From Candidatus Saccharimonadota bacterium (lineage in GTDB: Bacteria > Patescibacteriota > Saccharimonadia > Saccharimonadales > Saccharimonadaceae), in NCBI GenBank assembly GCA_030531645.1, contig JAUNNB010000007.1, positions 1 to 49,575 on the forward strand: a DNA stretch of 49,575 nucleotides, in the 5' to 3' direction. Shown piece by piece: positions 719 to 18,714 of this stretch. The translations under genes were made by a program, and so were the position numbers. Positions within the stretch are counted from its first letter, which is position 1. Every line of letters begins with the position of its first letter. The notes beneath the pieces are model-generated. The model searched no databases. It saw only the letters and a program-made list of their open reading frames with translations, and had not been told where the DNA came from.

Positions 719-727
719 TGTTATAAT
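719..727 (+). promoter_or_regulatory. Extended -10 promoter of the structured leader
   Basis: TGtTATAAT; the predicted start, about 734, is the first base of the outer stem of the leader RNA that follows. Confidence 0.6.
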
Positions 728-733
728 TACATC

Positions 734-1333: not shown

Positions 1334-4300
1334 ACTATTATTGCTGATTGATTTGATAAGAATCCTTTTTCGTTAATACCATCAATAACTTTATCAATAA
1401 TAGTATCCTCACCGACTTTAACCGTTACATGAGTTTGGGAGTTAGCCTCAATTGCATCTGAAATCGACACGTCAACCTTGCCTTTAGTATTACTGATAGT
1501 TTCTGCAATACTAGACAAATCAGGGCTAACTATATCTTTGAGAGATGCCTTAGCGCAAGCAGTGATATCTTCTACTGTATCAATAAGGTCGTCGCCGCCT
1601 TCGGAGAAACCATTGTTAAGACCTTGCGCCATATAGCCACCAATCTCAGCAAAAAGCCTAGAGGGGGAATGAATGCCTAGAAAATTCTTTATCCCATTAA
1701 CAGCTCCTGAAAAGATATCGCCCATTTTCTTTCCAATATTGCCAATACCTTCCTTTAAGCCATTCCAAATATTGGAGCCGATGTTCTTAAATGTGTCTAC
1801 TGCTCCGCCAAACGCACCCTTAATGTCATTCCATCGATCTTTAGCCCAATTTTTTACGCCAGACCAAGCACTGCCTATCGCCTCTTTGGCACCTTTAAAC
1901 TTTTCACCAAACCAATTTCCAACGGAGTTGAAAGTATCTTTTATGCCTCCCCAGATTTCTTTGCCTTTTTCTCCTATCTTGTTAAATGCATCGCCCACCT
2001 TTTGCTTCGCATCGTTAAACCAATTGCCAAATTTCTCGCCAATTCCACACCAAACATCTTTAACCTTTCCCCATAGGCCACCAGAGTCACGCTCCATTTT
2101 GCCGGTCGTTTCATTCCATTTCATTCCAAAATCGCCAGCATCTTTTATAATCGCATCACGAAGTTGTTTAGAATAATCCGACCCGTCATTTGCTAATTCT
2201 TCCAATTTACTATTTAATTGTTCGGAATTTAGTTTTGCATCTTTTATTGACTGAATACCCTCATCAAGACTTTCCTTTGTTACATTCTGAGATTCAGCAA
2301 GAGTTTTAAGATTTTTTTCTTGTTCCTGCTGCTTGTCATTTAAATCATTATATGCTGAGTTTTCGTCAAGAATGGCATCATAAAGCTTTGTAACTTGCTC
2401 CCTATTCTTATCCAAGGATAGTCCATATGTTTCGGCTACTGCTTGCAAACGCTCCTCCTTGGATCCTTTTTCTGCCAGTTGCCCAACCAGATTTTGTACT
2501 TCCTCGGCATTCAAATGTAATTGTGAGCCGCTAGCCTTTTCAGCCTCCAAAAGAGCCTTATCCGTTTCTTCTAACTTCTTTTCGGCTTCATCCAGACTCC
2601 TAAGCGAATCAGCTTGGCGTTTTATTATTTCTTCTTGCTCTTGAAGAGCCTTTGTATATTTTTCAGATGATTCTTTTAGTTTACCATTCATTTTATCAAC
2701 ATCTTTTTGCGATGCTTTCATATCAAAGAAACCACCAATGGCATTAGATATAGCACCACCCAATGCAGAAAGTCCATCTTTAAAGATATTACAAAACCCA
2801 GAAATTGCTTCAAATAGTGGTTTGAGTAATTCAAGTAATCCACCGAGTACTTTTAAAGCTATATTAACTGGTGATAATGCAGTGCTGATTTTCATAACAG
2901 CCTCAACAAATGGAGAGATTAACTTGAATATAGTGCCTATGATAGATGCAATCGGTTGCAATATCCCCATAATAATATCTAATACTGGCGTAAGTGATGA
3001 TGCAATAATCGAGATTAGTGGACTAATCGCATCTGCGACCGATTTTATGATGCTCATAATCGGAGATAGCACAGCCTTCAACAAATCCATAAGTCCCTCT
3101 CGTAGATCATCATTAGTAAGCATAAGAGCGCCAATAACGGCAATTAAGGCACCAATTGGATGAGCGGATATGAGGCCAAATAATCCAGAAAAAGCACCTT
3201 TTACCGTACCTATTACCCCCGTAATACTTGATAATGCCGAACTTAGTCCTCCGGTAACGACCGAAATGATACCAGAGCTTTCATTCGAAACATGGCCAAA
3301 TGCAGAAGCCAATGTTAAACCGGCATCCCAAGCTTTCTTAAATGACCCTGTTGCTTTAGTTATATCTGTCGCTAATTTGGATATTTTAATGGTGGTTATT
3401 ACTGCACTGATTGCAGCTAGGGCAGAAGCTAACCCCCTCACAGCACTTTCATTATTAGCCATTTTTCTACATTCTTCGCCGATTCTATGTAAAACAGAAA
3501 CGATAATGCCGCCCGTCCATTGAGCAATCGGCACCAAGAAATCATCAATAAATGGTTTTAGAAATGAATTCCAGTACTCCCTTAATACGGCTCCTACCAG
3601 CTGAATTGCTCCACCAATAGCATCCAAAATTCCAGGCAATAATGAATTGCCGGCCCAGCTAACTAGCGGCTTCAAATATTCATTCCATATATCACCAATA
3701 ATTTCACCAATAGGTTTTGCTGCAGCCTTAATATCATCTATAAATTGTATGATAGAGTCCTTAATAACATCAAAATCAAAGATGTTCTTAAGCTTATTCA
3801 TCATTCTCTGGAATATTTCTTCTATTTTATCAGCTGCCTTACTTGCTCCAAAATCCTCATTATCCCAATTGTAATTAGCGATTGCCGCTCCTGCACCTCC
3901 AGCACCACTAGTTGCTCCACTTGATCCACTGGATGTATTTTCGTGAAGCACATTCATTTCATCAAAACCAGCAAGTTGTTGTTTAAGTTTCTTAGCAGCT
4001 TTATTAGCATCATCGATGCCATCGGCTACATCTTCAGCACCCGAAGCGATACCAGCCATATTATCGACCGCCGCATCGGTTTCCTTAACTAAATTATTCG
4101 TTGAGCCTTTGCCACCAAACAACGTCCCAATCCATGCCACCGCTTCTTTAATTAACTTAACAAAAGCGGCAATATAGTTCATCGCTGTATTAATTGCGTT
4201 TGTGATGTTTTCAAAAAATTTAGGGATGTTGCTACTGCTAAGCACATTGATAATATTTGTAATACCACGAGTAATTGCCGTTTTCATATTGGTAATACCC

Positions 4301-5040
4301 GTAGCAACACCAGCGCAGTTGTTTCTAGCCTGCGTTTCAAAGTTCTCAAATCCAGGCAAGCCTTCTTTGTTGAGTTTCATGATTGTAAACATGAAGTCAT
4401 TCATGGAGACCTTGTCAGCCTTTAGGGCTTCATAGAGGTCATTTGAGGAAACATAACCCATAGATTGGGCAATTTGCTTCAATTGGCTAGGCATAGCTTG
4501 AAGCAAGATTTTCCAATCCTGCATATCTGGCTTACCTTTAGCATAGGCTTGCATCATCTGTTCTAGTGCAGATGCTTGCATTTGAGCGTCGTTTGTGCCG
4601 GCAAGAATAGCATTATTCATTGCCAGGAACATATCTGTAGAGGCTTGCAGATTGCCGTTAATAGCCGTCAGGCGCTGTGTGGCAGCAGCAGCGGTATCTA
4701 GTTTGGTTGGCAACCCTTTAAGTTTTTCCGAGAGCTTGTCTATGGCGATACTAGAGATGTCGGCCGAGACTCCAAGTCCAGACATCACCGTAGAGAAGTT
4801 ATTCATGGTGTCAAAGCGCTTTATTGCATCTCCCACGCTACTAGCCATAGCAGAAAATGCTCTGCTAATAACATTACCAGCAATATGCCCTAAAGTTGAC
4901 CCGAAGGCAATCATCTTTGTCGAAACTTTACTAGACGATGTTCCAAATGACTGTAAAGTCTTTGAGGCTTTATTCATCTTGGCTTCAAAATCGTTTGTAT
5001 TAGCTGAAACTATTACATTTAATTCATTTGCTGTAGGCAT
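1330..5040 (-). CDS. Phage tail tape measure protein
   Basis: At 1236 residues it is the largest gene in the prophage. The first 250 residues resemble the TP901-type tape-measure core, with a start like other phage tape measures, and a long middle part alternates hydrophobic helices (around 480 to 760) with a charged coiled coil (about 780 to 960). The C-terminal third carries repeated tryptophan/glycine blocks of the form W-x-x-IK and ends in a conserved SPSRLFAEIG-like motif typical of these proteins. The protein sets tail length; at about 0.15 nm per residue the tail would be roughly 185 nm (estimate from family behaviour). It directly follows the tail chaperone frame. No tail-tip gene follows; the next gene is convergent. 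Confidence 0.9.
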   Translation of the reverse strand: MPTANELNVIVSANTNDFEAKMNKASKTLQSFGTSSSKVSTKMIAFGSTLGHIAGNVISRAFSAMASSVGDAIKRFDTMNNFSTVMSGLGVSADISSIAIDKLSEKLKGLPTKLDTAAAATQRLTAINGNLQASTDMFLAMNNAILAGTNDAQMQASALEQMMQAYAKGKPDMQDWKILLQAMPSQLKQIAQSMGYVSSNDLYEALKADKVSMNDFMFTIMKLNKEGLPGFENFETQARNNCAGVATGITNMKTAITRGITNIINVLSSSNIPKFFENITNAINTAMNYIAAFVKLIKEAVAWIGTLFGGKGSTNNLVKETDAAVDNMAGIASGAEDVADGIDDANKAAKKLKQQLAGFDEMNVLHENTSSGSSGATSGAGGAGAAIANYNWDNEDFGASKAADKIEEIFQRMMNKLKNIFDFDVIKDSIIQFIDDIKAAAKPIGEIIGDIWNEYLKPLVSWAGNSLLPGILDAIGGAIQLVGAVLREYWNSFLKPFIDDFLVPIAQWTGGIIVSVLHRIGEECRKMANNESAVRGLASALAAISAVITTIKISKLATDITKATGSFKKAWDAGLTLASAFGHVSNESSGIISVVTGGLSSALSSITGVIGTVKGAFSGLFGLISAHPIGALIAVIGALMLTNDDLREGLMDLLKAVLSPIMSIIKSVADAISPLISIIASSLTPVLDIIMGILQPIASIIGTIFKLISPFVEAVMKISTALSPVNIALKVLGGLLELLKPLFEAISGFCNIFKDGLSALGGAISNAIGGFFDMKASQKDVDKMNGKLKESSEKYTKALQEQEEIIKRQADSLRSLDEAEKKLEETDKALLEAEKASGSQLHLNAEEVQNLVGQLAEKGSKEERLQAVAETYGLSLDKNREQVTKLYDAILDENSAYNDLNDKQQEQEKNLKTLAESQNVTKESLDEGIQSIKDAKLNSEQLNSKLEELANDGSDYSKQLRDAIIKDAGDFGMKWNETTGKMERDSGGLWGKVKDVWCGIGEKFGNWFNDAKQKVGDAFNKIGEKGKEIWGGIKDTFNSVGNWFGEKFKGAKEAIGSAWSGVKNWAKDRWNDIKGAFGGAVDTFKNIGSNIWNGLKEGIGNIGKKMGDIFSGAVNGIKNFLGIHSPSRLFAEIGGYMAQGLNNGFSEGGDDLIDTVEDITACAKASLKDIVSPDLSSIAETISNTKGKVDVSISDAIEANSQTHVTVKVGEDTIIDKVIDGINEKGFLSNQSAIIV

Positions 5041-5042
5041 AT

Positions 5043-5653
5043 TTAGTCCTTCTTCCCATACTTCAACTTGGCCATCCGTACCCGTTGGTCATCAGTAATC
5101 GCAATTTGTTCCTCTTGCTCCCTCTTGATGCTTGTAAACGGCTTTTTCGGGTAATGTTTAGGGTCGTGTACTGCATATTGGATATAATATCCAAATATAT
5201 GGTTAAGTTGGTCTATACGTTCATTTTCACGATCTAGACGATTACGGTAACCTGTAACGCAATCATAGAACTCACCATAAGTCAGCTCCCAGTAATCCTT
5301 TATTGAAATCCCTATCTCAAACGCTAGGATTTGTTGTTCCTTCCAGACTTCTGTGAAGGTCTTGAGATTTCTACTGGCTGCTCCATCTCCTGGCGTAATT
5401 TCGCCACGTCTATCTTTTGTCCTAAAAAACCAGCTTCGTTAATGGCTTCCATAATCGTAGCAAGCACTTCAGCTAAACCCTTTTTGAACGTTTCATCAAA
5501 AGTAGCATTATCACCACCGCCACAATGCCAAATGAACAATAAGTCACTAATGGAGGTATTGCCATCGCCTAAGTGTGAGATAATTTCGAAAAAGTTTTGT
5601 CCGCTTTCTCTTTCGGCATTTGCGATATTAGAAGCTTTATAATCGAGAATCAT
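5043..5653 (-). CDS. Tail assembly chaperone, -1 frameshift product (gpGT type)
   Basis: The sequence U UUU UUA (5429 to 5423, minus strand) spans codons 76 and 77 of the short chaperone frame in the correct phase for -1 slippage. After it, the -1 frame stays open for 126 codons to a TAA at 5045-5043, giving a 203-residue product. This second part has no start codon of its own and contains ELTYGEFYD and FGYYIQYAVHDPKHYP, normal protein-like sequence. Gene order (tail tube, chaperone, frameshift extension, tape measure) is the one seen in lambda-like and many Gram-positive phages. In those, the longer form bridges the tape measure and tail tube during assembly. Confidence 0.85.
5324..5653 (-). 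CDS. Tail assembly chaperone, short form (gpG type)
   Basis: A 109-residue protein between the tail tube and the tape measure. It is mostly acidic and helical, with FDETFKKGLAEVLATIMEAI around residue 52 to 71, and ends in a short basic tail (SGRNNKS). In siphoviruses this protein coats the tape measure before tube polymerisation. A slippery heptamer at codons 76-77 produces the longer form described separately. Function is assigned from position and frameshift architecture rather than from a strong motif. Confidence 0.75.
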   Translation of the reverse strand: MILDYKASNIANAERESGQNFFEIISHLGDGNTSISDLLFIWHCGGGDNATFDETFKKGLAEVLATIMEAINEAGFLGQKIDVAKLRQEMEQPVEISRPSQKSGRNNKS

Positions 5654-5721
5654 AGGTTATTTCCTTGTTTAAGTTACTGATTAGGGGTAGTTAGACTCCA
5701 CCCCTAGGAGTTTTTGCTTAA

Positions 5722-6150
5722 CTAGGATTCGTTTTCGGTATAGACAGGCTTACCGCTCAGACGAATAGTAAAGCTGACGGTAGCGAGACCATCGGTAGTA
5801 GCTTCGCCATACTTGAAAGCTTTGACAAAACCACTATATGTAAGAGTACCTTTACCGTCTGGATAAGTTTCTACCCATTCACGAATATCACCGCTATCAA
5901 ACAGAGCCGAGAGTTTCTGCACCTGGCCATCAAAGCAGTTGTTTGCAGTGACATCAATAGACCCAGGGTCTTTTGCGCCCTGAATATACTCTTTTGAGCG
6001 ATTTGGTGAATCAAGAGTAGTAACATCGATTTCATCAGCTTCAGTTGACTGTTCGCCAATTGAAACGATGTGAGCTAAAACGAGATCAGAAGGCTCGCTT
6101 CCAGCTTTTTTAAGAGTAAGGCTTGTTGCCATAGTTTGTACACCAGCCAT
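5722..6150 (-). CDS. Major tail tube protein
   Basis: A 142-residue, beta-rich protein with the pattern of lambda gpV/TP901 tail-tube proteins: an early IVSIGEQSTEADEIDVTTLDS-like strand pair, the central region around KDPGSIDVTANN, and a C-terminal strand ATVSFTIRLSGKPVY. AAAGGAG lies seven bases before the ATG. It would stack as hexamers around the tape measure. It sits between the head-tail joining genes and the tail chaperone, as expected for its role. Confidence 0.8.
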   Translation of the reverse strand: MAGVQTMATSLTLKKAGSEPSDLVLAHIVSIGEQSTEADEIDVTTLDSPNRSKEYIQGAKDPGSIDVTANNCFDGQVQKLSALFDSGDIREWVETYPDGKGTLTYSGFVKAFKYGEATTDGLATVSFTIRLSGKPVYTENES

Positions 6151-6167
6151 ATTATTTCTCCTTTACA

Positions 6168-6503
6168 TCAACGCAGGCCAACAAAAGTCGCATTGATGTG
6201 GTATAACGCTCCCTCCGGTGATGGGACATCGAGGGAATTTTGTAGTCGATACTTCAACTCACGCATCTTAGCCTCGACTTGGACTAAGAGCGAACTGGCG
6301 GTAACGCTATCATCCGCATAGATATCGAGTGTAACTGCGATATCTTGTTTGACAATCTCATTATCGAGATCATATTGTGCAGAATTACCGGTAATACGGT
6401 AAGTAATGGCCGGGACTTCATTAAAGACATTCTGAGACGATAAAGTTACAGGGAAACCCAATTCCTTTAGCTTTGATACTATTTCTGGTTTTGGATTAAA
6501 CAT
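6168..6503 (-). CDS. Tail completion / minor head-tail protein
   Basis: A 111-residue protein beginning MFNPKPEIVSKLKELG, with an alternating strand region around residues 30 to 65. It overlaps the HK97-gp10-like gene by eight bases and precedes the tail tube gene. This position is occupied in related phages by the tail terminator or completion protein (gpU/DUF3168-like). Assignment is by synteny and size; sequence motifs are weak. Confidence 0.6.
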   Translation of the reverse strand: MFNPKPEIVSKLKELGFPVTLSSQNVFNEVPAITYRITGNSAQYDLDNEIVKQDIAVTLDIYADDSVTASSLLVQVEAKMRELKYRLQNSLDVPSPEGALYHINATFVGLR

Positions 6504-6921
6504 TTTCTACCGCCTTTCGAATAATACCTTTGATAAGTGCCTGGTTTTCGAAGAATGCTCTACCTAAAAACGGTTGTGCTACTTGTCCAGCTCTATTGCC
6601 GTACGCCAATGGCATCTGCGTTCGATACGGATAACTTCCGCCACCACGTTTACCAGTGCCGAATTCCACGTAAGGAGCATATTCAATACTTGTATATACC
6701 TTACCCATAGTTTCCCCGGACACAGTAGTCGCTGGAATCATATGGATAGATTCACGTAATGTACCAGTATCAACGGGACATATCATCTTAGCATCTGCGT
6801 CGATAATGCCAGTAGACACATTTATAGCCCGTTCGAGAGCAGTTGTAAGCTTCTTGGAGATATTTGAATACCTCGTTTGTACGCCAGCTAAACCATTTAC
6901 TTGCAGATTTACGCTTGCCAT
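6496..6921 (-). CDS. HK97 gp10-like head-tail joining protein
   Basis: A 141-residue protein with family landmarks CPVDTGTLRESI near residue 50, the YAPYVEFGTG motif near residue 81 and AQPFLGRAF near residue 115. Members act as tail completion or neck proteins joining the filled head to the tail. It overlaps both neighbours by a few bases, indicating translational coupling within the head-tail operon. Confidence 0.85.
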   Translation of the reverse strand: MASVNLQVNGLAGVQTRYSNISKKLTTALERAINVSTGIIDADAKMICPVDTGTLRESIHMIPATTVSGETMGKVYTSIEYAPYVEFGTGKRGGGSYPYRTQMPLAYGNRAGQVAQPFLGRAFFENQALIKGIIRKAVENV

Positions 6922-7253
6922 CTCTTACCTACTATCGTAATGTGCGAATCGCTCGGAATTATACTTGTCACCTGATAATTCTTGCCCGAGTAGGAAATAA
7001 TATCGTTCAGCATAACTTCCACCTCTGTCCTACAAGTAATACAGATGTCAATGGACTCCGATAGACCCAGTTCAGTCATTACTTCCCCAAGCTGGCTAAA
7101 TCTTACGTTGCCCTGAAAGCTGTCCCGAATTTCACCCTTATTCTTGATGAGTCCGCCCTCGTCATCAAGAATATCAGTAATATCCAAGATGTTTACGGTT
7201 TTGTCGTAAAAGTTATCAGCAATAGCCTGTCTAACTGTTTCAGGAACAAACAT
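6909..7253 (-). CDS. Head closure / head-tail adaptor protein
   Basis: A 114-residue protein. The start at 7253 (MFVPETVRQ) is preferred over an upstream in-frame ATG because AGGAG lies eight bases before it. A strand-rich centre (ISYSGKNYQVTSI) resembles SPP1 gp16-type head-closure proteins, which plug the portal channel. It overlaps the upstream gene by 14 bases and the gp10-like gene by 13. The call relies largely on gene order. Confidence 0.55.
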   Translation of the reverse strand: MFVPETVRQAIADNFYDKTVNILDITDILDDEGGLIKNKGEIRDSFQGNVRFSQLGEVMTELGLSESIDICITCRTEVEVMLNDIISYSGKNYQVTSIIPSDSHITIVGKRWQA

Positions 7254-7617
7254 TAATTCTCCTATATGGCGCAAGTAGCTTAGTGAAACTGGCAAATACT
7301 TCATTGTCATCCGTAGAACTTAAATAATTCCTAATTTCGTTGGAATAACTAATAGATTGGCCATTATCACTCATGCTATTTATAGCCGAGTCTGCTTGGG
7401 TAGTTTCCAGTGAGTTGAATGTCTGGTTGAATATGCCAGAGACAACCCTTGCGACAATACGCTCAAGATTCTCAGCAAGCTCATCCACGTTAAGATAGAG
7501 CAATACACGATCGAAGACTTCACAGATTGCATATTCTAGGAGGTCTTCATCGTCTGTAGCCTTCTTGTTAATGGCTGAGACATATTCTTTGATTCTTGCG
7601 AGTTGTTCATCTGACAT
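7240..7617 (-). CDS. Head-tail connector (gp6/gp15-like)
   Basis: A 125-residue mostly helical protein (start MSDEQLARIKEYV; an ATG two codons earlier is possible, but GGAG spacing favours 7617). The pattern of an N-terminal helix, a middle helix DELAENLERIVARVV and a mixed C-terminus ending in LAPYRRI resembles phage DNA-packaging connector proteins of the HK97 gp6/SPP1 gp15 type, which form the ring under the portal. Its place directly after the capsid and head-decoration genes supports that. Confidence 0.6.
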   Translation of the reverse strand: MSDEQLARIKEYVSAINKKATDDEDLLEYAICEVFDRVLLYLNVDELAENLERIVARVVSGIFNQTFNSLETTQADSAINSMSDNGQSISYSNEIRNYLSSTDDNEVFASFTKLLAPYRRINVCS

Positions 7618-7631
7618 ATTCATTCTCCAGA

Positions 7632-7844
7632 CTATTTCTTTGGAGCTTCCTCCGCAGGTTTTGCCTCAGATTTCTCTTCTGGCTTTTCTGCAGGGGTTGC
7701 TTCTTTTGGAGCTTCTGCCTTCTTGGTTGCAGGCGCTTTGTCCTTAATCTCTTTGTAGACATCTGAGCCTCTCATAAGAGCAATGACTTCAGCGTTATCT
7801 GTTTCCTCGATTACATTAGCTTTTAGATTGCGAAATCTTGCCAT
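7632..7844 (-). CDS. Small head protein with Ala/Lys/Glu/Pro-rich tail
   Basis: A 70-residue protein. Residues 1 to 34 look folded (FRNLKANVIEETDNAEVIAL), while the remainder is a low-complexity K/A/P/E tail. Small proteins of this type are common directly after the major capsid gene and may decorate the head or assist the connector. No precise family is recognised. Confidence 0.55.
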   Translation of the reverse strand: MARFRNLKANVIEETDNAEVIALMRGSDVYKEIKDKAPATKKAEAPKEATPAEKPEEKSEAKPAEEAPKK

Positions 7845-7871
7845 TTCGTTTCTCCTTGTTTAAGGTTGATA

Positions 7872-8717
7872 TTAAGCGGATGGGGTTGGAAGAGTTGCGA
7901 GTTTCTTCACGAGATCAGCAGCAACAACCTTAGTGCCGAAGTCGTAGAAGAGCTCTACGGCGTGAGCATCACTGAGGTTGATTTTCTCATCTGCGTATTC
8001 ACGAACAGAAACTGGCTGTGCGACAGCACCGCTTGCCATTACCAAGATAGCGGCAGTCTGGCGAACATTGCTGTAGACACGAACACCATGAAATACTGCA
8101 ATTTCTTCAGCATCGCTACCGACAGATGCACCCGGCACTTTGTCAATGTAATTGCGAAGCTTGCCATAAGCAGCTGGGCTGAGAGTCATTTCAATGTCAG
8201 CACGATCAACACCTTCGACATATGCGTTGGTGGTGGTTTCAACCGCTTGAATCATAGCTTCGGCGACTGCTTCAATTTCAGTCTCGGTGGTGGTTACTGC
8301 GGTAGCAGCAGCCTCAGCAGCGGTGAAGAATGCTTTATCGAGAGCAACAATCATAGCCTTAGCATGATTGTCTTTGCGCTTAGCGATAATGTTTTCAACA
8401 CCCTGAGTACGAGCATCAAAGCCTTCAATCTCTTCGATGATTTCTTTATGCTGGTCGAGATTGATAGTAACTTTACCAGAGTTATCAAGAGCATCACCAT
8501 TGCCTGCGGAACGAGCAGTGCCGTAAGCTTTAGATGTAGCATTCTTGAAGCGGCTTACTTCAACAGAGCCGGTTGTTGGATCACCAGAGTAATCCTTGTT
8601 CTTAAGCTGCTCAGAGAGAGCGCCTTTTTGTACGGACTCAATGACCTTCCCATAGCTTTCAGCTAAAGAATCTTTGCCATCGCCGTTTGTAATATTAATA
8701 GCAGAAGTTCTTGCCAT
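7872..8717 (-). CDS. Major capsid protein, HK97 fold
   Basis: A 281-residue capsid subunit. The long helical middle (around residues 75 to 155, containing FDARTQGVENIIAKRK), the alanine-rich spine segment and the C-terminal A-domain-like strands (GVRVYSNVRQ, VSVREYADEKIN) fit SPP1/TP901-like HK97-fold capsids. It follows the scaffold gene with a 32-base gap and has GGAG before the ATG. No N-terminal prohead-protease delta domain is present, consistent with the separate scaffold gene. Confidence 0.85.
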   Translation of the reverse strand: MARTSAINITNGDGKDSLAESYGKVIESVQKGALSEQLKNKDYSGDPTTGSVEVSRFKNATSKAYGTARSAGNGDALDNSGKVTINLDQHKEIIEEIEGFDARTQGVENIIAKRKDNHAKAMIVALDKAFFTAAEAAATAVTTTETEIEAVAEAMIQAVETTTNAYVEGVDRADIEMTLSPAAYGKLRNYIDKVPGASVGSDAEEIAVFHGVRVYSNVRQTAAILVMASGAVAQPVSVREYADEKINLSDAHAVELFYDFGTKVVAADLVKKLATLPTPSA

Positions 8718-8749
8718 AATATTTTCTCCTTCGGATTATACGACTAAGT

Positions 8750-9310
8750 CTAGAAGGCAATTGCACCGTTGGCGTGATAGCCAGTTTCGGTTAAACCTTC
8801 GGATTTCTTAGCATTTTTGCTTCCATCACCGAAGTCTGTAGGAGTTTTGCCAGCTAATTTAGCTTCAACGGCCTTAGAAACGGCTTCATTGAAGGACTTA
8901 TTCAGCTTTTCGATATTCTCGAACATGGTGTCCTTATTAATATCTACGACAAAGTCCACAAGCTTAGTGTCGATGGATAGTTCTGCAAGCTTTTCGATGC
9001 CATCTGCACGATTTTCACGAAGCGTAATACTACGTTCCTTTTCGGCAAGCTCATCATCTTTAGCTTTGCGTTCCTCATTGGCTCTCTGCTCTTCGGTCAG
9101 TTTGGCTTTTCGCTCATATTCGGCGATTGCATCTGCAACGGCCTGCTTATTTCGCTCTTCAGCCTTGGTTTTCTCCTCAGCGATACGCTTTTGGATCATA
9201 TTGTTGACCTCGTCCTGAGTAAAGGTCTTTGAGTCGCCTTTATTGTCCTCTGTTTGTTCGGTAGTAGGCTTGCTTTCTACCGCAGAGTTCTGATTGGATG
9301 TTTCTACCAT
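8750..9310 (-). CDS. Capsid scaffolding protein (DUF4355/GP20 type)
   Basis: A 186-residue, highly charged protein. Residues about 30 to 105 form a long coiled coil (FTQDEVNNMIQKRIAEEK is the family's opening motif), followed by a capsid-binding C-terminus. Scaffold proteins template procapsid assembly and leave or are degraded before packaging. First gene after the promoter-terminator module at 9353-9407, so its expression depends on read-through of that terminator. Confidence 0.85.
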   Translation of the reverse strand: MVETSNQNSAVESKPTTEQTEDNKGDSKTFTQDEVNNMIQKRIAEEKTKAEERNKQAVADAIAEYERKAKLTEEQRANEERKAKDDELAEKERSITLRENRADGIEKLAELSIDTKLVDFVVDINKDTMFENIEKLNKSFNEAVSKAVEAKLAGKTPTDFGDGSKNAKKSEGLTETGYHANGAIAF

Positions 9311-9352: not shown

Positions 9353-9382
9353 AAAAAAGCACGCAAGATTTCTCTTGTGTGC
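9353..9382 (-). terminator. Leader terminator in front of the head/tail operon
   Basis: Minus-strand GCACACAAGA, loop GAAA, TCTTGCGTGC, then six U residues. One internal A-C mismatch. It starts about ten nucleotides after the predicted transcription start (about 9392). A second copy with two compensatory base-pair changes lies at 16784-16813. Confidence 0.75.
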
Positions 9383-9398
9383 GCATTGACTTAACTAT

Positions 9399-9407
9399 AT
9401 TATATCA
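9399..9407 (-). promoter_or_regulatory. Phage late-type promoter A (extended -10)
   Basis: TGATATAAT in the context TTATGATATAATATA. It would transcribe scaffold, capsid and all tail genes to position 1330. No convincing -35 at 16 to 18 bp, so the TG extension or an activator may matter. Confidence 0.65.
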
Positions 9408-9446: not shown

Positions 9447-9641
9447 TTATCCTGCCGTTTCGTCTTCAAATGGTTGGTTATTCGCAATACGTTTTCTAAT
9501 ATAGGCGCAAATCTCGTCAACTGTCTTTACATTATCTGGCAATTGTTGCTCAAAGAACACAGGAAGACCCGGTAACTCAGGATCTCCAAACCTAGCGGCA
9601 TATTCTACCTCAATTTGGCGTATTTTCTCTGCATCTGTCAC
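9447..9641 (-). CDS. Small phage protein of unknown function
   Basis: A 64-residue acidic protein (MTDAEKIRQIEVEYAAR…). Its ATG overlaps the stop of the MuF gene by one base, so it is translated as the last cistron of the packaging operon. No motif recognised; similar small proteins between the MuF and scaffold genes occur in SPP1-like phages. Promoter A lies just downstream of it, within the 136-base gap to the scaffold gene. Confidence 0.6.
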   Translation of the reverse strand: MTDAEKIRQIEVEYAARFGDPELPGLPVFFEQQLPDNVKTVDEICAYIRKRIANNQPFEDETAG

Positions 9642-11386
9642 TACTTTTTACCTCCAATCTCTTTTATTATATCACGATAAATGCTATATGATTCTGGAAA
9701 GTACCGTCTGATAAGCTTAGTGGCATTTTTATTCAAGATTGAAGCACTATACATTTCCGTAAATGCCTCGTGCGCAAGGCTCCTGTCATTCCAATATGAT
9801 GCCTTGTGATATGCTCCAAGATTAAATTTGTTTTTAGTCACACCGCTAAAGATGTCCGAAATATATGAATAGTCCCTTTTGTCTGGAAAGTTAGTCTTGA
9901 TGGCTCTAGTAATTTGTTGTGATGTTGTAAGCTTTATACCGTCAATGGAGTATTGTTTAGAATTAAAGAGCTTTTCGGCTTCTTTCTTGAGTGTTTTAGC
10001 GAAAATGCCATCTTTGTATATCTCTGACATGTATCCTTTGCCTTTAGTCGCCAAGTAATCGATATTATGACCCGACTCATGAATCATTGTTCTATATTTG
10101 TCAGACCATATTGAGCCATATGAATCTCTTTTGAGATTAAAGACGATGGATTCGCTCCTAGGGCTGAAGTGTGCAGTACCTTTGTATGCTGTATTGCTCA
10201 CCATAACCTTGTCTTTGTAATTATTGAACACTTTGCGCTCATCTGGCATAGCTTTTAGCTTACTATTGATATATCTTGTTGCTGATTCAGACATGATTTT
10301 AGATAGACTCTTTGTGCGATTCCTACTTTTTGCAGAGGCTTCTGCTTTTTGTCTTGCGACTGCTAGTTCATAAGATTTATCCATCTGTTTTCGCCAGTCA
10401 TTGAAGCTAATATTGTAAGTAAAATGATTTCTTCCAGTTTCTGGATCTCGATACATCCTAGTTTCCGGCTCATACTCTTTAAAATAGGGCACAATAGTAG
10501 AACGACAATTCGGATGGAGTGGCGGCATATTCTCGCCAGGAATAGCATCCTCTACTTTAATCTTGTTGCCGTCGTTTTCCTGGCAGATTTCACTTGTACG
10601 GTTATCTAACGTCGCTAGGAAACGATAATATTTGAAGCCCATCTCTTTATATGAATCTATCTCCGCTTGATTATGGAAGTAATTGGACTCTGTGCGGATA
10701 AGTCGCTCTGCATAATACTGGTTTACATCAAAGCGCTCCCTAAACTCTCTCGCCGTTTTCTGTACACTCTGGCCGGAGGCAATGGCAGAAGCCAGCTTAT
10801 TTTGAAGTGACTGAGCCAATATGTCCGTATTAGCCCAGATGCGTTCTGAATAGTTCTTGCCTTGAAACTTCGAATCAAGCACCTTATCTACTGTTTGTTT
10901 ATCGAGCATTGAAAAGGAAGTCGGTGTGGAGCCGATACCACGAGATACATCGTAGCCAGAATGATAATAATCATTTTCGTACACCTTAGAGTGTGCCTCG
11001 GTCTCAAGTTGAGTTTGTTTCAATGCTGCTTCTTTAATTCCAGCCCACATTTGAGCATTTAAGAATTCCAAGCGGCTCATACGACCTTTATAGTTATCAG
11101 GGAGATATGTGTTGAGCCCTAGCTCCTCCATGCGCTTCAGAAAACGTTTTACATCGCCTGCTGGGGTAATAGCTCTAAGAGCTTGCATATCAAAAGTGTT
11201 GTCGCTCCTATAATAAGCTTCGTATATCGCTTTAACCTCATTTATCGTTTTTCTGCGAGCCTTACGATATACATCCTGTACCTTAGTAATATATTGTTTA
11301 GTAATTTTCTCACTACTAGCAAGGCGGTCGTTGGCCCGCCTTGCCCAATATGCATCAGTTCGTTTTCTAAGTGGAGTAGAAGCCAT
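9641..11386 (-). CDS. MuF-type minor head protein fused to a metallopeptidase-like domain
   Basis: A 581-residue two-part protein. Residues about 1 to 330 are the MuF/SPP1 gp7 head-morphogenesis region, with the hallmark segment LDNRTSEICQENDGNKI and, further on, PPLHPNCRSTIVPYF. After a charged linker, residues about 370 to 581 contain HESGH at 436-440 and a downstream HEAFTEMYSA segment at about 539; H-E-x-x-H plus a distal glutamate is the zincin pattern. MuF proteins are carried in the capsid and some temperate-phage members bear C-terminal toxin domains. I infer a virion-delivered peptidase or toxin, not proven. It follows the portal gene with an 11-base gap. Confidence 0.8.
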   Translation of the reverse strand: MASTPLRKRTDAYWARRANDRLASSEKITKQYITKVQDVYRKARRKTINEVKAIYEAYYRSDNTFDMQALRAITPAGDVKRFLKRMEELGLNTYLPDNYKGRMSRLEFLNAQMWAGIKEAALKQTQLETEAHSKVYENDYYHSGYDVSRGIGSTPTSFSMLDKQTVDKVLDSKFQGKNYSERIWANTDILAQSLQNKLASAIASGQSVQKTAREFRERFDVNQYYAERLIRTESNYFHNQAEIDSYKEMGFKYYRFLATLDNRTSEICQENDGNKIKVEDAIPGENMPPLHPNCRSTIVPYFKEYEPETRMYRDPETGRNHFTYNISFNDWRKQMDKSYELAVARQKAEASAKSRNRTKSLSKIMSESATRYINSKLKAMPDERKVFNNYKDKVMVSNTAYKGTAHFSPRSESIVFNLKRDSYGSIWSDKYRTMIHESGHNIDYLATKGKGYMSEIYKDGIFAKTLKKEAEKLFNSKQYSIDGIKLTTSQQITRAIKTNFPDKRDYSYISDIFSGVTKNKFNLGAYHKASYWNDRSLAHEAFTEMYSASILNKNATKLIRRYFPESYSIYRDIIKEIGGKK

Positions 11387-11397
11387 CTAACGCCCTT

Positions 11398-12765
11398 TTA
11401 GTTCATATCTTCATTGCTAACCTGAACATTTTGGTCAGTTTCGTTCATATCTGCAAAGTCATTGGCAGCATACGACTCATCCTTTGGGGTATCACCTTCT
11501 TCTTGTTCTGCAATCTCTACGGTCTCGCTGGCATCCTTTACGAATGAGAGTTGAGATACGAGAAGTTCTTTGTCTACGATGCCAGTGAGATTATTAATCA
11601 TCTGGCTGGTCTCGTAGTCGTTGGATGGAAGATTGCGCTTGAAAACAACATCGACCTCTTCGGCTGGAACTGCCTTCATGATAGATTTCGTTTGAAGGAA
11701 GGTACCATAGAGAACAAAACGCTCGATAAGGCTCTTCTCGAAGAAACGCTCCTTGTTTTTTATTGTCTGTTCGAAGGTGAGCAATTTATAGCGCAATGCA
11801 ACGCCGGATGAGTTACCAACAAAGTTTTCATCAGACATATTAGGGACCATACTAATCTTATGGATATCTTGTTCGATATTCTTGCGCAATACATTTACAT
11901 CGGACTCATTAACATCTTTTGTGAGATACTCAATCTTACCATCATGAGGGATGTTTGATAGAGCACGATACTCTTTAAGTTGTTTCATTTGTTCATTATC
12001 GAACTGCATGCCATAGAAACATAGGATAGAATCAACAAGTTGCTCACGATCATTAACTCGGTCGCTCTGAATTAGGTTATAAGCATCGATAAGACTAATG
12101 ACTGGCTCAAAATCACCTTGTAATTCGCCGTTATTGCGATACTCAATCATTGGTACTTTGCCAAAGACATGGGGTTTACGTGATATCTCCTTAAGATTAT
12201 TCCCAGTAAGTGTATAGTTGATAATTTCGTTCTTCGTGGCCACAATCACATCATAATATGCTGGCGTGGTATCCTGTGGCTTATTGTAGATCGGACGATA
12301 ATTCAAGCCGTACAGCTTGTTATGTACCATAGTATTGTCGTAAATAATGATGGTATTACGTACATCGAGCGCCACAGAACGTGGCTCCGCATTCTCATCT
12401 GCATAGATATACTCGTATTTGATACCAAAAATGGAGCATTCCTTTGCAATCTCGACATCCATATTCTCCATAGTTTGTCTCTTATAGGCATCAAGAATAG
12501 GTTGGATATCAATGCCGTCATTCACTTGATAATCGACAGGGTTACCAAGAAGGTATCCGGTCGCTACATCCACGATATATTTAGCGTGATTCACCATGAC
12601 TTTGTTGTTGAATCTTGTGCTATCTTTCTCTCGTTTTGTGATTTCTTGTTTACCGAGATAATAATCATCTAGGCGATTGAAACGCTCTCGTCGTTTCTCG
12701 TTGTAGTCAATCGCATCTTTGATAAGCTTTGCGGTTAACTCTGTTTCGATTGGTACTTGATACAT
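11398..12765 (-). CDS. Portal protein, SPP1 gp6 family
   Basis: A 455-residue portal subunit; twelve copies form the DNA entry ring at one capsid vertex. Start at 12765 (MYQVPIETELTA) chosen because AAGGAGG lies six bases upstream; an in-frame codon nine residues earlier overlaps the terminase. Family-typical stretches include YYLGKQEITKREK near residue 38, GYLLGNPVDYQV near 73 and NFVGNSSGVALRYKL near 310, the stem region. The C-terminus is acidic and likely disordered. Confidence 0.9.
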   Translation of the reverse strand: MYQVPIETELTAKLIKDAIDYNEKRRERFNRLDDYYLGKQEITKREKDSTRFNNKVMVNHAKYIVDVATGYLLGNPVDYQVNDGIDIQPILDAYKRQTMENMDVEIAKECSIFGIKYEYIYADENAEPRSVALDVRNTIIIYDNTMVHNKLYGLNYRPIYNKPQDTTPAYYDVIVATKNEIINYTLTGNNLKEISRKPHVFGKVPMIEYRNNGELQGDFEPVISLIDAYNLIQSDRVNDREQLVDSILCFYGMQFDNEQMKQLKEYRALSNIPHDGKIEYLTKDVNESDVNVLRKNIEQDIHKISMVPNMSDENFVGNSSGVALRYKLLTFEQTIKNKERFFEKSLIERFVLYGTFLQTKSIMKAVPAEEVDVVFKRNLPSNDYETSQMINNLTGIVDKELLVSQLSFVKDASETVEIAEQEEGDTPKDESYAANDFADMNETDQNVQVSNEDMN

Positions 12766-12775
12766 ATTTCCTCCT

Positions 12776-14215
12776 TTACCAATACCCCACACGGACAGAT
12801 GCTCCGTGCTTATTTATTACTTCCGGCTTCCTAACGGTTGTAATCATTTCATATATGGCCGCTAAAACATCTACTGCATCATCATGAGCGTTACGGCCTT
12901 TTCTTTGATAGCTCATGACTTGTCTGTAAAATTCTGGGTACTTTGTGCGCCAATTCGGTGGCATATAGACGTGGTTTTGCACCCAAGAAGACGAAGAGAG
13001 AATGCGAGATTCCTTGTTCTTCGTTTGAGTTTGGGAGGTGATGACTACTTTGTTGGTGTTCAGTTTTTCTTTTAATATCATTTCTACGTTTCGGGCAAAA
13101 CCACGTCCACCATTATTGCTCTCTATAACAGACTCGTTCACGTTGCCGTTAGAGAGCAGTTCGGCAACCTTTGACTCTGTAATTTCCATAGGCTCATCTG
13201 TGAATACTAGATCCGTAATATAAGCCTCACCATTATATTCAATATAGTTGATAGAGCAGAGAAAGTCTGAGCCGGTATCCGCTGTATCAGTATAGTTTGT
13301 CACTTTACCTTCTGGTTTCTTATCCCAAATCATAAAATCAGAGTAGAGTCGTCCACCAATATCAATAGGCTTTTGATTGTAGTTGGCTTCTACAATATCT
13401 AAATTCATTTCACGGGTTTTGGTCTTGAAGTCTTTCTTAGAGAGAACATCTTCGCAAAGCATTGAGCCATCTTCTTGAACTGCCTTATAGGTGATTATCT
13501 CTACATCATCGCCAAACTTATCTAAAACCCTGCCGGCAAGATCTCCTTCTGCCCAGCGAGTCATAATGATAATAACCTTCCAATTATTCTCACCACGAGA
13601 GAGGAAGGTATTATTAAACCACTCCCAATGGTTTTCCAGTACATTGTCGTTGTATGCGTCTTCTGCCGAACGAATAAGGTCATCCACGATTAGGTAATTT
13701 GCGCCAAACCCAGTTGCAGTGGCATTTGGCGATGTTGCAAGATAGTTAACTTCTGAGGACTTCTCGAGAGTCCACATCTGGGCCGATGCCTCACCATACT
13801 TGACCTTAGTGTGAGGGAAAATGTCTGAATACACGATATTCTTATTCACTTTCTCGGTCTGAATCATATTACGAACAGAGCGAGCAAATGTTGATGATAG
13901 CTTTTCATTATAAGAGGCTGTCATAACTTTACTTTTTGGGTCTCTGCCGAAGAGCCATGCTGTGAATAGTTGTGCTGTGAGCGACTTGCCATGTCGAGGC
14001 GGCAGGTTGATAACTAGGAAATGTTTGTCTGAGGCCTCTACAAAGCGCTGAAGGCTGTCGCACATCTCATGTAGGTATTTTCTATTGTCCTTATAGAATC
14101 CGCCCTGCATAAGCTCGCAAAAGCCAAAGAAATCAATGCGAGCCAACTCACACCTGAGTTCTTGCTGAACTTCCGGTGTTACAGATAATTTGCGAATATC
14201 TTTTAGGGTCATCAT
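12776..14215 (-). CDS. Large terminase subunit (ATPase/nuclease)
   Basis: A 479-residue DNA-packaging motor. The ATPase has Walker A PPRHGKS at 72-78 and Walker B LIVDDL at 175-180, with a coupling motif IIIMTRW near residue 215. The C-terminal RNase H-like nuclease starts near residue 310 (CSINYIEYNGEAYITDLVF) and continues to HDDAVDVLAAIYEM, the conserved final aspartate region. It cuts and pumps concatemeric phage DNA through the portal. The start ATG overlaps the small-subunit stop in an ATGA arrangement. Confidence 0.93.
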   Translation of the reverse strand: MMTLKDIRKLSVTPEVQQELRCELARIDFFGFCELMQGGFYKDNRKYLHEMCDSLQRFVEASDKHFLVINLPPRHGKSLTAQLFTAWLFGRDPKSKVMTASYNEKLSSTFARSVRNMIQTEKVNKNIVYSDIFPHTKVKYGEASAQMWTLEKSSEVNYLATSPNATATGFGANYLIVDDLIRSAEDAYNDNVLENHWEWFNNTFLSRGENNWKVIIIMTRWAEGDLAGRVLDKFGDDVEIITYKAVQEDGSMLCEDVLSKKDFKTKTREMNLDIVEANYNQKPIDIGGRLYSDFMIWDKKPEGKVTNYTDTADTGSDFLCSINYIEYNGEAYITDLVFTDEPMEITESKVAELLSNGNVNESVIESNNGGRGFARNVEMILKEKLNTNKVVITSQTQTKNKESRILSSSSWVQNHVYMPPNWRTKYPEFYRQVMSYQRKGRNAHDDAVDVLAAIYEMITTVRKPEVINKHGASVRVGYW

Positions 14216-14595
14216 TTGATTAGCTTCCTCAATTCTGCTGCTGTCAGTCCTTCGAACGGTCGTTCATTGATTGTTGTGGCGATTTCGCCAGTAACTTGAC
14301 TTTTGGTCTCCTGTGCATCGTAGCCGCCATTAAGTTTAATCTTTATATCTAGTGCTTTTGAGATTTCGAGTGGCGTAGAATCTGGATCATCGATAATCTC
14401 ATCAAGTTTTTTCAAATCTTTCTTGATTCTTGCAGGATTCTTGGCCGCCTGCTTCTTGGCAATAGCACGATAGGAAAAATCATCCTTTGGCCTACCGCCA
14501 TTGTTTCCAACACTGAGCTGATTATCCTTGGCAAATGTGCCATCGGAGTTTCTCCCGAGTTTTGCAGAGGTGGTCTGTTTACTATCTTTACTCAT
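14212..14595 (-). CDS. Small terminase subunit
   Basis: A 127-residue protein beginning MSKDSKQTTSAKLG; AAGGGA nine bases before this ATG rules against the longer frame. A basic, glycine-rich N-terminus (GNNGGRPKDD) is followed by a helical domain and a short C-terminal helix (EGLTAAELRKLI) of the type that docks the large subunit. It recognises the packaging site. Assignment from position, size and this architecture. Confidence 0.7.
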   Translation of the reverse strand: MSKDSKQTTSAKLGRNSDGTFAKDNQLSVGNNGGRPKDDFSYRAIAKKQAAKNPARIKKDLKKLDEIIDDPDSTPLEISKALDIKIKLNGGYDAQETKSQVTGEIATTINERPFEGLTAAELRKLIK

Positions 14596-15301
14596 TGTCG
14601 TCCCTTTCGTATTTACATTTATCGCTAAAAACTTGTCTAATATACGCACCAACTTCACACATTAGAAAACTGCTGTCATCTGTAGATAGAAACATACTCC
14701 GCTTGCTGTAATTATTTGTGTTCGAATATACCTTTACATCTTTCTCGACAAATCTAGGGTGCACGTTAGTCATATTGCAATACAAGCTCCTACGATGACC
14801 GTTACTTGGATATTTAGATAATATCTCTAGCAGGTGTTTCTTATGGAATATGATTGGAGCATGAACTTCGTAATCATTAGTCTTGTAATCACCGTTTATT
14901 AACACCTCTCTGGCCTTGATTAAATCAGCAGCATAAGAGCCAATTCGCCCATATGTTGCGAGTCTATCATTTAAATCACCTAGCGAATAATATGGTAATT
15001 CTCTGATAAGCCTCATTATGAAGAAGTCATCGTTCATCATAATGAATGGATCAGAGATTTCTGGGTTTATGCATGCCATGTAGAGCTTGCGATTAACTTT
15101 CTCGAACTTCTTTAATTCATGATGGTAATCTATATCGGTATCTATTCTGGTGACTTCTTCCGAAAGCCATGGGATTTCCTTGGAACAGACAAAAACCTTA
15201 CGATGTGGCATATTTTTGAGAGAACGTAGGGAGTATCGTAAATCATTGTTACTGCCATCAGCCAACACTGGGTAGAACACATCAAGATTCTTTGTAATCA
15301 T
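14588..15301 (-). CDS. Stealth-like sugar-phosphate transferase
   Basis: A 237-residue protein with features of the Stealth family (hexose-1-phosphate transferases in capsule synthesis). FIMMNDDFFIMR around residue 90 corresponds to the conserved NDD block, and NLDVFYPVLADGSNNDLR is a shortened, changed version of the N-terminal CR1 motif. The start at 15301 forms ATGA with the stop of the glycosyltransferase before it. Being encoded in the packaging operon, it probably modifies a virion component or host surface polysaccharide; the target is unknown. A generic glycosyltransferase is the alternative. Confidence 0.6.
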   Translation of the reverse strand: MITKNLDVFYPVLADGSNNDLRYSLRSLKNMPHRKVFVCSKEIPWLSEEVTRIDTDIDYHHELKKFEKVNRKLYMACINPEISDPFIMMNDDFFIMRLIRELPYYSLGDLNDRLATYGRIGSYAADLIKAREVLINGDYKTNDYEVHAPIIFHKKHLLEILSKYPSNGHRRSLYCNMTNVHPRFVEKDVKVYSNTNNYSKRSMFLSTDDSSFLMCEVGAYIRQVFSDKCKYERDDNE

Positions 15302-16104
15302 TGCTCCCACCTTCCATTTCTCAAATTTTCAATGGCATTTGCAAGCTTGATATCTCTTCTCGCACGTGTATATGATTTCTCAAGCTTCAAATCCATCAAA
15401 TCGGCCACAAAACGATAGCAGCTAGACTTCCATTTATCCAAATAACTGTTACTGGTAGAATCTGGTCTAATATACCAATTTACAACTGGCTTTTTAAACC
15501 ATGCTACTGTTTCCGTAACATCACATTGCTTAAGATGCTGACAGACGTCTTCACAAAGCGTGTTCTCAGGGAATGGCTCAAAAAGTTCTTCCTTAATCGC
15601 TTTTGTCCAACAAGCTACTCGGCAACTATGGGCAACATCCTCAATATCTTGCTCTCGCAAGATATTCGGTGTTTGGTCTACTGTAGTGCCATCAATATTG
15701 TGCCTAATATAAGGCAAACGTATCATATCCGGGTAATCATTTTCGACAATAAAATCATGAAGTTCTTGAAGAATATTTTTGCCTACAAAATCATCATCAG
15801 CATCGAGAAATATGACATATCTACTAAGACCGTTCGGCATTTCATTCATTGCACGATTTCTAGTGCCACCGTTGAAGATCTTTTCTGGGTATTCCGTTCC
15901 CAAGAAATAAAGTGAATTTGCTCCGAGTATGAACGGAAATTCTTTGCGCAAATCTACTAATTTATCATAGGTACCATCCTCCGAGCAATCATCAATCACA
16001 ATCAATTCAAAATCTTTAAAAGTCTGTCCCATAACAGATTTAATTGCTCGCTCGATAGTGCCGACGTTATTGTATGCCGGTATGATTACTCTGAAGAAAC
16101 TCAC
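15298..16104 (-). CDS. Family 2 glycosyltransferase
   Basis: A 268-residue GT-A fold enzyme. The N-terminal FRVIIPAYNNVGTIERAI and VIDDCSEDGT bind the nucleotide sugar; FLDADDD near residue 104 is the metal-binding DxD. A later ENTLCEDVCQ segment (about residue 188) holds the likely catalytic ED. No membrane segment, so it acts in the cytoplasm. It is coupled by ATGA to the Stealth-like gene, suggesting two steps on one glycan. Donor and acceptor cannot be read from the sequence. Confidence 0.85.
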   Translation of the reverse strand: MSFFRVIIPAYNNVGTIERAIKSVMGQTFKDFELIVIDDCSEDGTYDKLVDLRKEFPFILGANSLYFLGTEYPEKIFNGGTRNRAMNEMPNGLSRYVIFLDADDDFVGKNILQELHDFIVENDYPDMIRLPYIRHNIDGTTVDQTPNILREQDIEDVAHSCRVACWTKAIKEELFEPFPENTLCEDVCQHLKQCDVTETVAWFKKPVVNWYIRPDSTSNSYLDKWKSSCYRFVADLMDLKLEKSYTRARRDIKLANAIENLRNGRWEQ

Positions 16105-16119
16105 TATAACCCCTCCGAC

Positions 16120-16368
16120 TTATTTGCGTTTAAGAAATCTGACTGGCGGTGTTTCAATAAATTTCGGAGTCGTATCGGCGACTTTAACTTTCTTGGTTGT
16201 ACTCTTGACTGCTTTAGGCTGCAACGCATGAATCTCGTAAGTTGTACCATACATAGTAACCGTAGCCATACCTTTCTTTACTTTGCCAGTGACATCAATA
16301 TCTTGGCCAAAAAGCCTTACAACTACCCTGCCGTCTTCATTTGGTTTAGTTTTGATGATTTCTACCAT
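16120..16368 (-). CDS. Small basic phage protein
   Basis: An 82-residue protein starting MVEIIKTKPNEDGR (AAGGGA upstream decides this start over an earlier ATG). Two short strand-rich units (RVVVRLFGQDIDVTG, MATVTMYGTTYEI) suggest a small beta barrel, followed by a lysine-rich tail. Overlaps the previous gene by 23 bases. No family recognised. Confidence 0.55.
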   Translation of the reverse strand: MVEIIKTKPNEDGRVVVRLFGQDIDVTGKVKKGMATVTMYGTTYEIHALQPKAVKSTTKKVKVADTTPKFIETPPVRFLKRK

Positions 16369-16753
16369 AAGATCCCTTTCTAAATGTCGACACTCCTCGT
16401 GCATTTATGTTATTGGCCAATTCAGTGAGCGTTTTTTCTTTCACGTATCCTCTACGGGACATAAGTATTACTCGTGGCTGACGAATTTCGCCGTCTTTAT
16501 AAATGCCGTCGATGCACAGCTCACAAGCAACTCGTTTCGTCGGAATATGTAAAAGTAAAACTCTGCCAACAGCGGTAGTTTTTGCACGAAACTTATCGTT
16601 TAACTTGAATTCATCCACTAAATCGTTAGCTGCGTTCTTTACTTTGATGCCAATCTGCATTTGTAATGATGTCTCAAAGCAGATTTCAGAACAAGTTAAT
16701 GCTCGCATCGTAACGAGTGTTTCGAACTCATTTACTGATAGGTTTTTGTCCAT
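16346..16753 (-). CDS. Phage protein of unknown function, first gene of packaging operon
   Basis: A 135-residue protein with a helical N-terminal half and a strand-rich second half (RVLLLHIPTKRVACELCIDG). Four cysteines are spread without a zinc pattern. AAAGGA precedes the ATG. It is the first cistron behind promoter B and its leader terminator. In that position it could have a regulatory or packaging role, but nothing in the sequence shows one. Confidence 0.55.
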   Translation of the reverse strand: MDKNLSVNEFETLVTMRALTCSEICFETSLQMQIGIKVKNAANDLVDEFKLNDKFRAKTTAVGRVLLLHIPTKRVACELCIDGIYKDGEIRQPRVILMSRRGYVKEKTLTELANNINARGVSTFRKGSYGRNHQN

Positions 16754-16813: not shown

Positions 16814-16829
16814 GTATTGACTTATTTAT

Positions 16830-16838: not shown

Positions 16839-16867
16839 TAAACGGATTAGTGAGACTAGGTGGCAGA

Positions 16868-16896
16868 TTGACTTATAAGGTGTTCTGTGCTACAAT
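16868..16896 (+). promoter_or_regulatory. Plus-strand promoter of the winged-helix gene
   Basis: TTGACT (16868-16873), 17 bp spacer, TACAAT (16891-16896) with a TG extension; divergent from promoter B. Predicted start about 16903. Confidence 0.7.
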
Positions 16897-16902
16897 GGTT
16901 TT

Positions 16903-16999
16903 AATTAATTGGCTAGTTTGACCTCAGGCTGACTCAACTCGGCTTGAGGTCTTCTGTGCTCACCTCAATTATGTAAACACATAAAATGGAGGTAATATT
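16903..16999 (+). promoter_or_regulatory. 97-nt leader with alternative hairpins
   Basis: GACCTCA (16920-16926) pairs with TGAGGTC (16945-16951). The same TGAGGT can instead pair with ACCTCAA (16962-16968). A small ATGT/ACAT hairpin (16971-16982) stands just before the GGAGG at 16988-16992. The alternatives suggest a regulated leader; no known class recognised. Confidence 0.4.
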
Positions 17000-17272
17000 T
17001 TGACTCTTGAGTATCTCAAGGTTGATAAGCGTATCATGAAAGAGTACGGCATTAACGCAGCCGTATTGCTTGAGCAAATTCGCTATTCATCTAAGATTCT
17101 ACCCAAGGATCAGAATGGATATTGCTACATAGACTCTAATTATTTGTGTTCGGAACTCGGATTAAAACGAAATACCTTCCTTAGAATACGACAGAAATTG
17201 ATAGAATCACATCTTATTGCTTGCAGAACTGGACATAACCAGAATGACAAGCCCAGATATAAATTGTTATAA
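17000..17272 (+). CDS. Winged-helix DNA-binding protein (TTG start)
   Basis: A 90-residue protein. YCYIDSNYLCSELGLKRNTFLRIRQKL around residues 47 to 73 reads as a helix-turn-helix of the winged-helix class, resembling the N-terminal domain of phage replication organisers and DnaD-like proteins; the usual C-terminal replication domain is absent. GGAGG lies seven bases before the TTG codon, the only credible start. Located beside a DnaA-box-like cluster and the integrase, so it may control replication or lysogeny. Function inferred. Confidence 0.65.
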   Translation: MTLEYLKVDKRIMKEYGINAAVLLEQIRYSSKILPKDQNGYCYIDSNYLCSELGLKRNTFLRIRQKLIESHLIACRTGHNQNDKPRYKLL

Positions 17273-18710: not shown

Positions 18711-18714
18711 AATA

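Follow-up and report, generated by a model that had tools for sequence, protein, structure and literature searches.

A promoter, a terminator and a phage-specific tag before the late units of Saccharibacteria phages suggest a distributed antitermination regulon

Introduction

In a prophage of a Candidatus Saccharimonadota bacterium, the operon that runs from the scaffold gene to the tape measure gene is preceded by a predicted promoter leading straight into a predicted terminator, which raises the question of how genes behind such a barrier are switched on. The original prediction, made from the window (the whole 49,575-nt stretch of DNA analysed here), proposed that these genes depend on read-through and drew analogies with lambda Q and HK022 put. 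On balance, we consider it probable that the late genes form a distributed regulon, kept off by terminators until a phage-specific antitermination factor reads a short tag at the start of each transcript. Promoter, terminator, tag, fixed geometry and distribution can all be read, as predicted features, from the sequence. In open-access papers, no account of late-gene control or antitermination in Saccharibacteria phages was found, which is weak evidence of absence.

Copies of the Module in the Window Prophage

At 9353-9407, on the minus strand, the predicted arrangement (copy A) was confirmed: an extended -10 promoter (TGATATAAT, 9407-9399) is followed by a predicted start A at 9392, 7 nt past the -10, a terminator-like hairpin from +11 (9382-9359) that has a GAAA loop and a single A.C mismatch, and, at +35 to +40, a U6 run (9358-9353). 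The initially transcribed region carries a phage-specific sequence, hereafter the tag (TAAGTCAATGCGC, 9393-9381), which overlaps the base of the terminator stem. A second copy with the same layout (copy B) is located at 16838-16784 on the minus strand, with an extended -10 promoter (TGGTATAAT, 16838-16830), a predicted start A at 16823, a hairpin from +11 (16813-16790), a U6 run at +35 to +40 (16789-16784), and a tag (TAAGTCAATACGC, 16824-16812) common to copy A and to a third copy on contig C2 of the same genome. Copies A and B are 87% identical over 61 nt; their 40-nt RNAs adopt the same predicted fold at -12.6 kcal/mol each (z -2.5 for A and -4.0 for B), and in both the stable hairpin directly adjoins the U6 run, as expected of an intrinsic terminator. 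The compensatory changes reported between the two hairpins were verified at two stem pairs (A-U to G-C and G-C to A-U). The GAAA cap is indeed present in the window, but it appears incidental, the loop not being conserved in relatives. A weak -10-like sequence (TGATATTAT, 9353-9345) lies just 3' of the copy A U run, the sole exception among the distinct modules described below, the other 68 of which have no -10-like site within 45 nt after the U run.

Behind copy A lies a late unit (1330..9310, minus) for scaffold (start at 9310), capsid, connectors, tail and tape measure, assigned by PHROGs and, in the case of the capsid, by homology to relatives. The unit behind copy B (9447..16753, minus) comprises g16346, g16120, glycosyltransferase-like genes, g14212, large terminase, portal, minor head protein and g9447 (PHROGs, homology). 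Within this packaging operon, genes that are Stealth_CR2-like (under the Pfam cut-off) or belong to glycosyltransferase family 2 (14588-16104, minus) perhaps have a role in surface modification.

Several other features of the prophage were recorded. Adjoining its tyrosine integrase gene (17537..18448, plus; Pfam PF00589) is a tRNA 3' fragment (18705-18763, plus), probably the attachment site, where ARAGORN calls no full tRNA. A terminator-like hairpin is likewise present in the leader (16860-17000, plus) of the early operon, which contains a winged-helix gene and the integrase, and a different conserved early-operon leader, ATATGTTGGGAAA..AAGCCTC, is common to loci L002 (3933-), L003 (3211-) and L217 (18798-). 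Between the phage tail region and a zinc-finger gene (878-1333), positions 719-850 (plus) hold a TGTTATAAT site and, after it, two pairs of complementary segments that interleave (GTCTCTACC/GGTAGAGAC and GGCATCGTAAG/CTTACGATGCC), which look like a pseudoknotted leader RNA; this stretch has no Rfam match.

The window is the entire contig C9 of its genome (G000). A module scan of the other contigs revealed the third module, TATAATATGAATAAGTCAATACGC, on contig C2, within a stretch encoding homologues of related phages' tail-tip proteins, endolysin, VRR-NUC-like protein and RecE-like exonuclease. This copy has a folding energy of -15.5 kcal/mol, and its distal stem is of unrelated sequence. Across the 771-kb genome, the tag pattern TATAATNNNNNTAAGTCAATRCGC has exactly three matches, namely copies A, B and C2, and its reversed control has no occurrence; a loose module finder run on 609 kb of host DNA, taken in stretches, returned 12 matches, none with the tag. 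On account of the common tag and the homologues of related phages' genes, the two pieces appear to be one prophage split over C9 and C2, with C2 1-11453 (L152) very probably being its missing half.

Conservation before Late Units of Related Phages

Relatives were gathered by scaffold, terminase and capsid searches, and those that are named belong to Saccharibacteria. After hand removal of 9 of the 81 finder matches, which lay outside a late-unit context, 72 modules were kept in 34 related phages and prophages, with two to five modules in most of those that are well covered. Many of the 34 are close relatives, so they do not count as independent events. When the finder was run on first-order Markov versions of these loci, it returned 1-6 matches. 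The scaffold gene has a module on its 5' side in nearly all relatives; further modules stand 5' of tail/lysis genes, of the g16346 homologue and, in some cases, of g14212, and in G058 they also stand before late units on the opposite strand. The search of other CPR prophages that had been proposed thus located the module before packaging, scaffold and tail/lysis operons.

The distance from the -10 to the U run is 39.5 +/- 2.3 nt, within finder limits that bound the range to about 27-49, and the U run averages 5.8 over the 72 modules; the presence of a hairpin in every module is partly by construction, as the finder used a folding criterion. Among 51 distinct starts, +1 is A in 50 and -1 is a pyrimidine in all, neither being required by the finder, and this retention in relatives supports the predicted start position. 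No -35 signal was detected among the related modules. At least seven modules have a second, tag-less terminator; in several phages, terminators stand in tandem behind one tag.

Small-RNA genes, too, consist of a promoter leading into a terminator, and the modules might be read as genes for regulatory RNAs of about 40 nt that act elsewhere, with the late genes served by promoters of their own. Such a role is very improbable, considering that 66 of the 72 modules are immediately followed by a late unit whose ribosome site and start lie no more than 170 nt away, with no further promoter, and that the distal hairpins are unrelated between copies.

A fresh test set consisted of new prophages from the genus and family, fetched with a g16346 alignment, with those seen before or cut by a contig end left out. 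The module was present directly 5' of g16346 in all 10 testable prophages (in G688, with two hairpins, it was recognised by eye), and the three examined at greater length, G660, G714 and G688, had 3, 3 and 2 copies with new shared tags GATCATTCGCG, GAACCATTTGCG and ATCTATTGCG. Conservation before late operons in the 34 phages and prophages and in this set strongly supports the original idea that late genes are controlled through read-through of a promoter-proximal terminator. Beyond these phages, the exact hairpin pattern had no match in viral contigs, and a 16-nt tag pattern matched 30 viral stretches, with the module found only in those of this Saccharibacteria phage family. Clostridial loci with a related capsid, a poor outgroup because they have little in common beyond the capsid gene, showed no module before their late genes.

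Two further observations concern the surroundings of the modules. In one subgroup, the scaffold region has further promoter-like sites nearby, whose long hairpins (CAGCCC...GGGCTGATTTTTT) carry no tag (L035 13044-13212, L069 582-646 and L079 9148-9212). In the G047 prophage region, genes for tRNA-Met, -His, -Asp and -Ile are situated near late modules (L040 5562-5797 and L041 6505-6580).

A Tag Common within a Phage and Different between Phages

The most informative feature of the module, absent from the original prediction, is the tag, which marks a regulon of two to five units. When copies from one phage are compared, the longest common substring has a mean length of 11.7 nt over the 24 nt that follow the -10, vs 4.4 in shuffled sequences; the corresponding values are 4.57 vs 4.33 for the 24 nt upstream of the -10, 2.70 vs 2.44 for the distal hairpin, and 4.27 vs 3.93 downstream of the U run. 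This within-phage comparison alone was used, between-group tag figures being circular because the groups were defined by tag. The sharing is confined to the first ~14 transcribed bases, which are common within a phage and differ between phages, as illustrated by AGACTAATTGCAC or near variants in five G047 copies, AAGACCAAATACGA in G013, TATCAATGACGGC in G058 and AGATCGACTGCGAC in three L056 copies. The specificity element therefore appears to be the initial transcript together with the stem base, the rest of the hairpin being kept as structure only. Selection on RNA structure, first argued from the two window hairpins, is supported more broadly, for within one phage the distal hairpin sequences are unrelated, yet all fold.

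These data can be set against the view that the terminators act passively, as brakes or insulators through which a constant fraction of transcription leaks without any trans factor, late expression being governed otherwise, for example by copy number after induction. A hairpin strength that varies widely across modules, from -7 to -19 kcal/mol, would suit such a brake, as would the fact that the factors discussed below are candidates, none of them established. A brake, however, needs no tag common within and different between phages. Gene conversion of whole copies is not a likely source of the tag either, given that the flanks are unshared and that conversion would hardly leave such short islands. 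We therefore hold the passive reading to be distinctly unlikely.

The tag might instead be a DNA operator, with a repressor or activator binding +1 to +15 of each late promoter to control initiation and the terminator merely trimming leakage. The data fit DNA recognition as well as RNA recognition, and an operator regulon too would show one shared phage-specific element per late promoter. By inspection, however, the tags lack dyad symmetry, and an operator would leave unexplained the overlap of the tag with the stem base, the terminator at a fixed distance from nearly every copy, and the two terminators at some late units, all of which make this reading unlikely.

A third possibility is put-like antitermination in cis, in which the 5' tag would pair with sequence past the U run and the read-through RNA itself would modify the polymerase. 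Pairing of this kind is seen in a number of modules (GUCAA/UUGAC in L010, ATCAA/TTGAT in several groups), with a mean of 9.86 vs 9.20 +/- 0.25 when partners were swapped between phages. It is, however, weak or absent in whole groups, such as those with AAGACTAATTGCAC and AAGACCAAATACGAC tags; the 3' partner would be made only once the terminator had been passed; and action in cis alone would not need phage-specific tags. We accordingly give this reading hardly any credence, and the outer RNA helix across the U run, weakly above chance, was rejected as a candidate.

Candidate Factors

No trans-encoded RNA complementary to the tag was detected in 17 phages, whose early regions were partly covered, the longest complement outside the modules being 8-10 nt, as for shuffled tags. 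Antitermination by a trans-acting small RNA was consequently rejected for the parts examined. Among phage proteins scanned, a subset of genes, no antiterminator homologue (including Q and AlpA) was matched, such proteins being known to diverge fast.

The leading but unproven candidate for a late regulator is g16346, the first gene behind copy B (16346..16753, minus). It was found in 23 of the 24 phages examined as the first gene behind the first module, the exception having its contig cut at that end. Its predicted fold is alpha-alpha-4 beta-alpha (model pLDDT 83), and the model had no significant match in PDB or BFVD. The second candidate is the early winged-helix gene (HTH_36; 17000..17272, plus), the first gene before the integrase, whose product resembles replication-initiator N-terminal domains. 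As a universal factor it was rejected, not being found in the module-bearing L010, L049, G044 and L079, some of which are only partly covered. Two early families, fam 38 and fam 40, were likewise set aside, each occurring in just four phages. When co-variation with the tag was assessed by partial Mantel tests, g16346 had the highest simple r (0.62) and a partial r of 0.38, equal to that of the minor head protein (0.39), so that neither g16346 nor the winged-helix gene was singled out.

Proposed Mechanism and Its Implications

Based on these patterns, each module would combine a sigma-70-type extended -10 promoter with an intrinsic terminator within 40 nt. In the lysogen, polymerase would start at each late unit and halt after an RNA of about 40 nt. 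After induction, the tag, which occupies the first ~14 transcribed positions, would be recognised by a phage-encoded factor, probably a protein. This factor might read it on the nascent RNA or on the DNA of the early elongation complex, and would let polymerase through the terminator. The packaging, scaffold-tail and lysis/tail tip units could thereby be switched on together.

Termination in vivo, the trans-acting factor and its processivity are the parts of this scheme that we infer. A phage-specific trans partner is suggested by a tag that is common within a phage and different between phages, and a protein is the likelier factor, as the parts examined encode no RNA complementary to the tag outside the modules. 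A processive change of the polymerase is favoured over the melting of one hairpin because of the tandem terminators behind a single tag. Taken together, the phage-specific tag, the lack of a complementary RNA and the second tag-less terminators favour antitermination keyed to the tag.

It is possible, and we put it forward tentatively, that these phages have a new class of late control, in which a distributed regulon under antitermination takes its specificity from a tag of 10-14 nt at the transcript 5' end. The tag, which overlaps the terminator stem, would be read by a protein from an unknown family, for which g16346 is a possibility, and would have diversified until every phage lineage carried a different one. 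If that protein is g16346, its place behind the first of these terminators could make the switch self-reinforcing. The tag, readable from sequence alone, would assign late units to a phage and join prophage pieces split by assembly, as with the window prophage, and a possibly new antitermination mechanism would become accessible in ordinary reporter strains without growing the host.

Comparison with Known Systems

Lambda Q and 21Q typically serve one late promoter, whereas here two to five late units are involved. As in those phages, a late promoter is followed by an intrinsic terminator that is passed (here by prediction) for late expression, and the layout of a terminator directly downstream of a late promoter recurs in all 72 modules of the 34 phages and prophages (predicted terminators). 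Q reads the DNA between -35 and -10, where the QBE is located, together with a -10-like pause element (PMC6606751). In the present modules, by contrast, the tag lies in the initial transcript and no QBE-like element is shared. For a -10-like pause element in the initially transcribed region, the best match was 3.59/6 vs 3.41 shuffled, a value reached by 16 of 500 shuffles, and the A2 and T6 positions were kept with at least a 4/6 match in 31% vs 20%. The lambda Q analogy thus stands as regards a terminator directly past a late promoter, but not as regards the -35 to -10 site, which is unshared and has no -35.

The nearest system is the AlpA regulon of Pseudomonas aeruginosa, in which the alpB and PA0807 promoters each have a close intrinsic terminator (26 bp past the start at PA0807) and depend on one antiterminator, and in which the response requires an AlpA site located between -35 and -10 (PMC7969949, PMC9371919). 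In both systems, an intrinsic terminator (here predicted) stands behind each of two or more promoters. Unlike in AlpA, the -35 to -10 region here is unshared and without a -35, and the common element lies downstream of the start. The module may work like those of Q and AlpA, and it is not filed as a member of that group because no shared element upstream of the -10 was found.

In HK022, put acts in cis by itself, with no phage protein (PMC9378689). It resembles the present module in being transcribed at the very start of the message. Instead of a two-stem RNA without a terminator U run, however, both window copies have one hairpin followed by U6, and a partner acting in trans is suggested by tags that vary from phage to phage. 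The put analogy is weakened on these grounds.

RNA antiterminators of the BglG/LicT type act on one terminator via an alternative hairpin. The recognised RNA would here, too, overlap the 5' arm of the leader terminator, but no alternative hairpin is evident, and several phages have tandem terminators behind a single tag. P2 Ogr, finally, activates initiation from upstream sites, and terminators are not its control point. The regulon proposed here would be similar to that of Ogr in uniting several late operons through a shared cis element and one phage factor, and would differ in that the control point lies at the terminators rather than at upstream activation sites.
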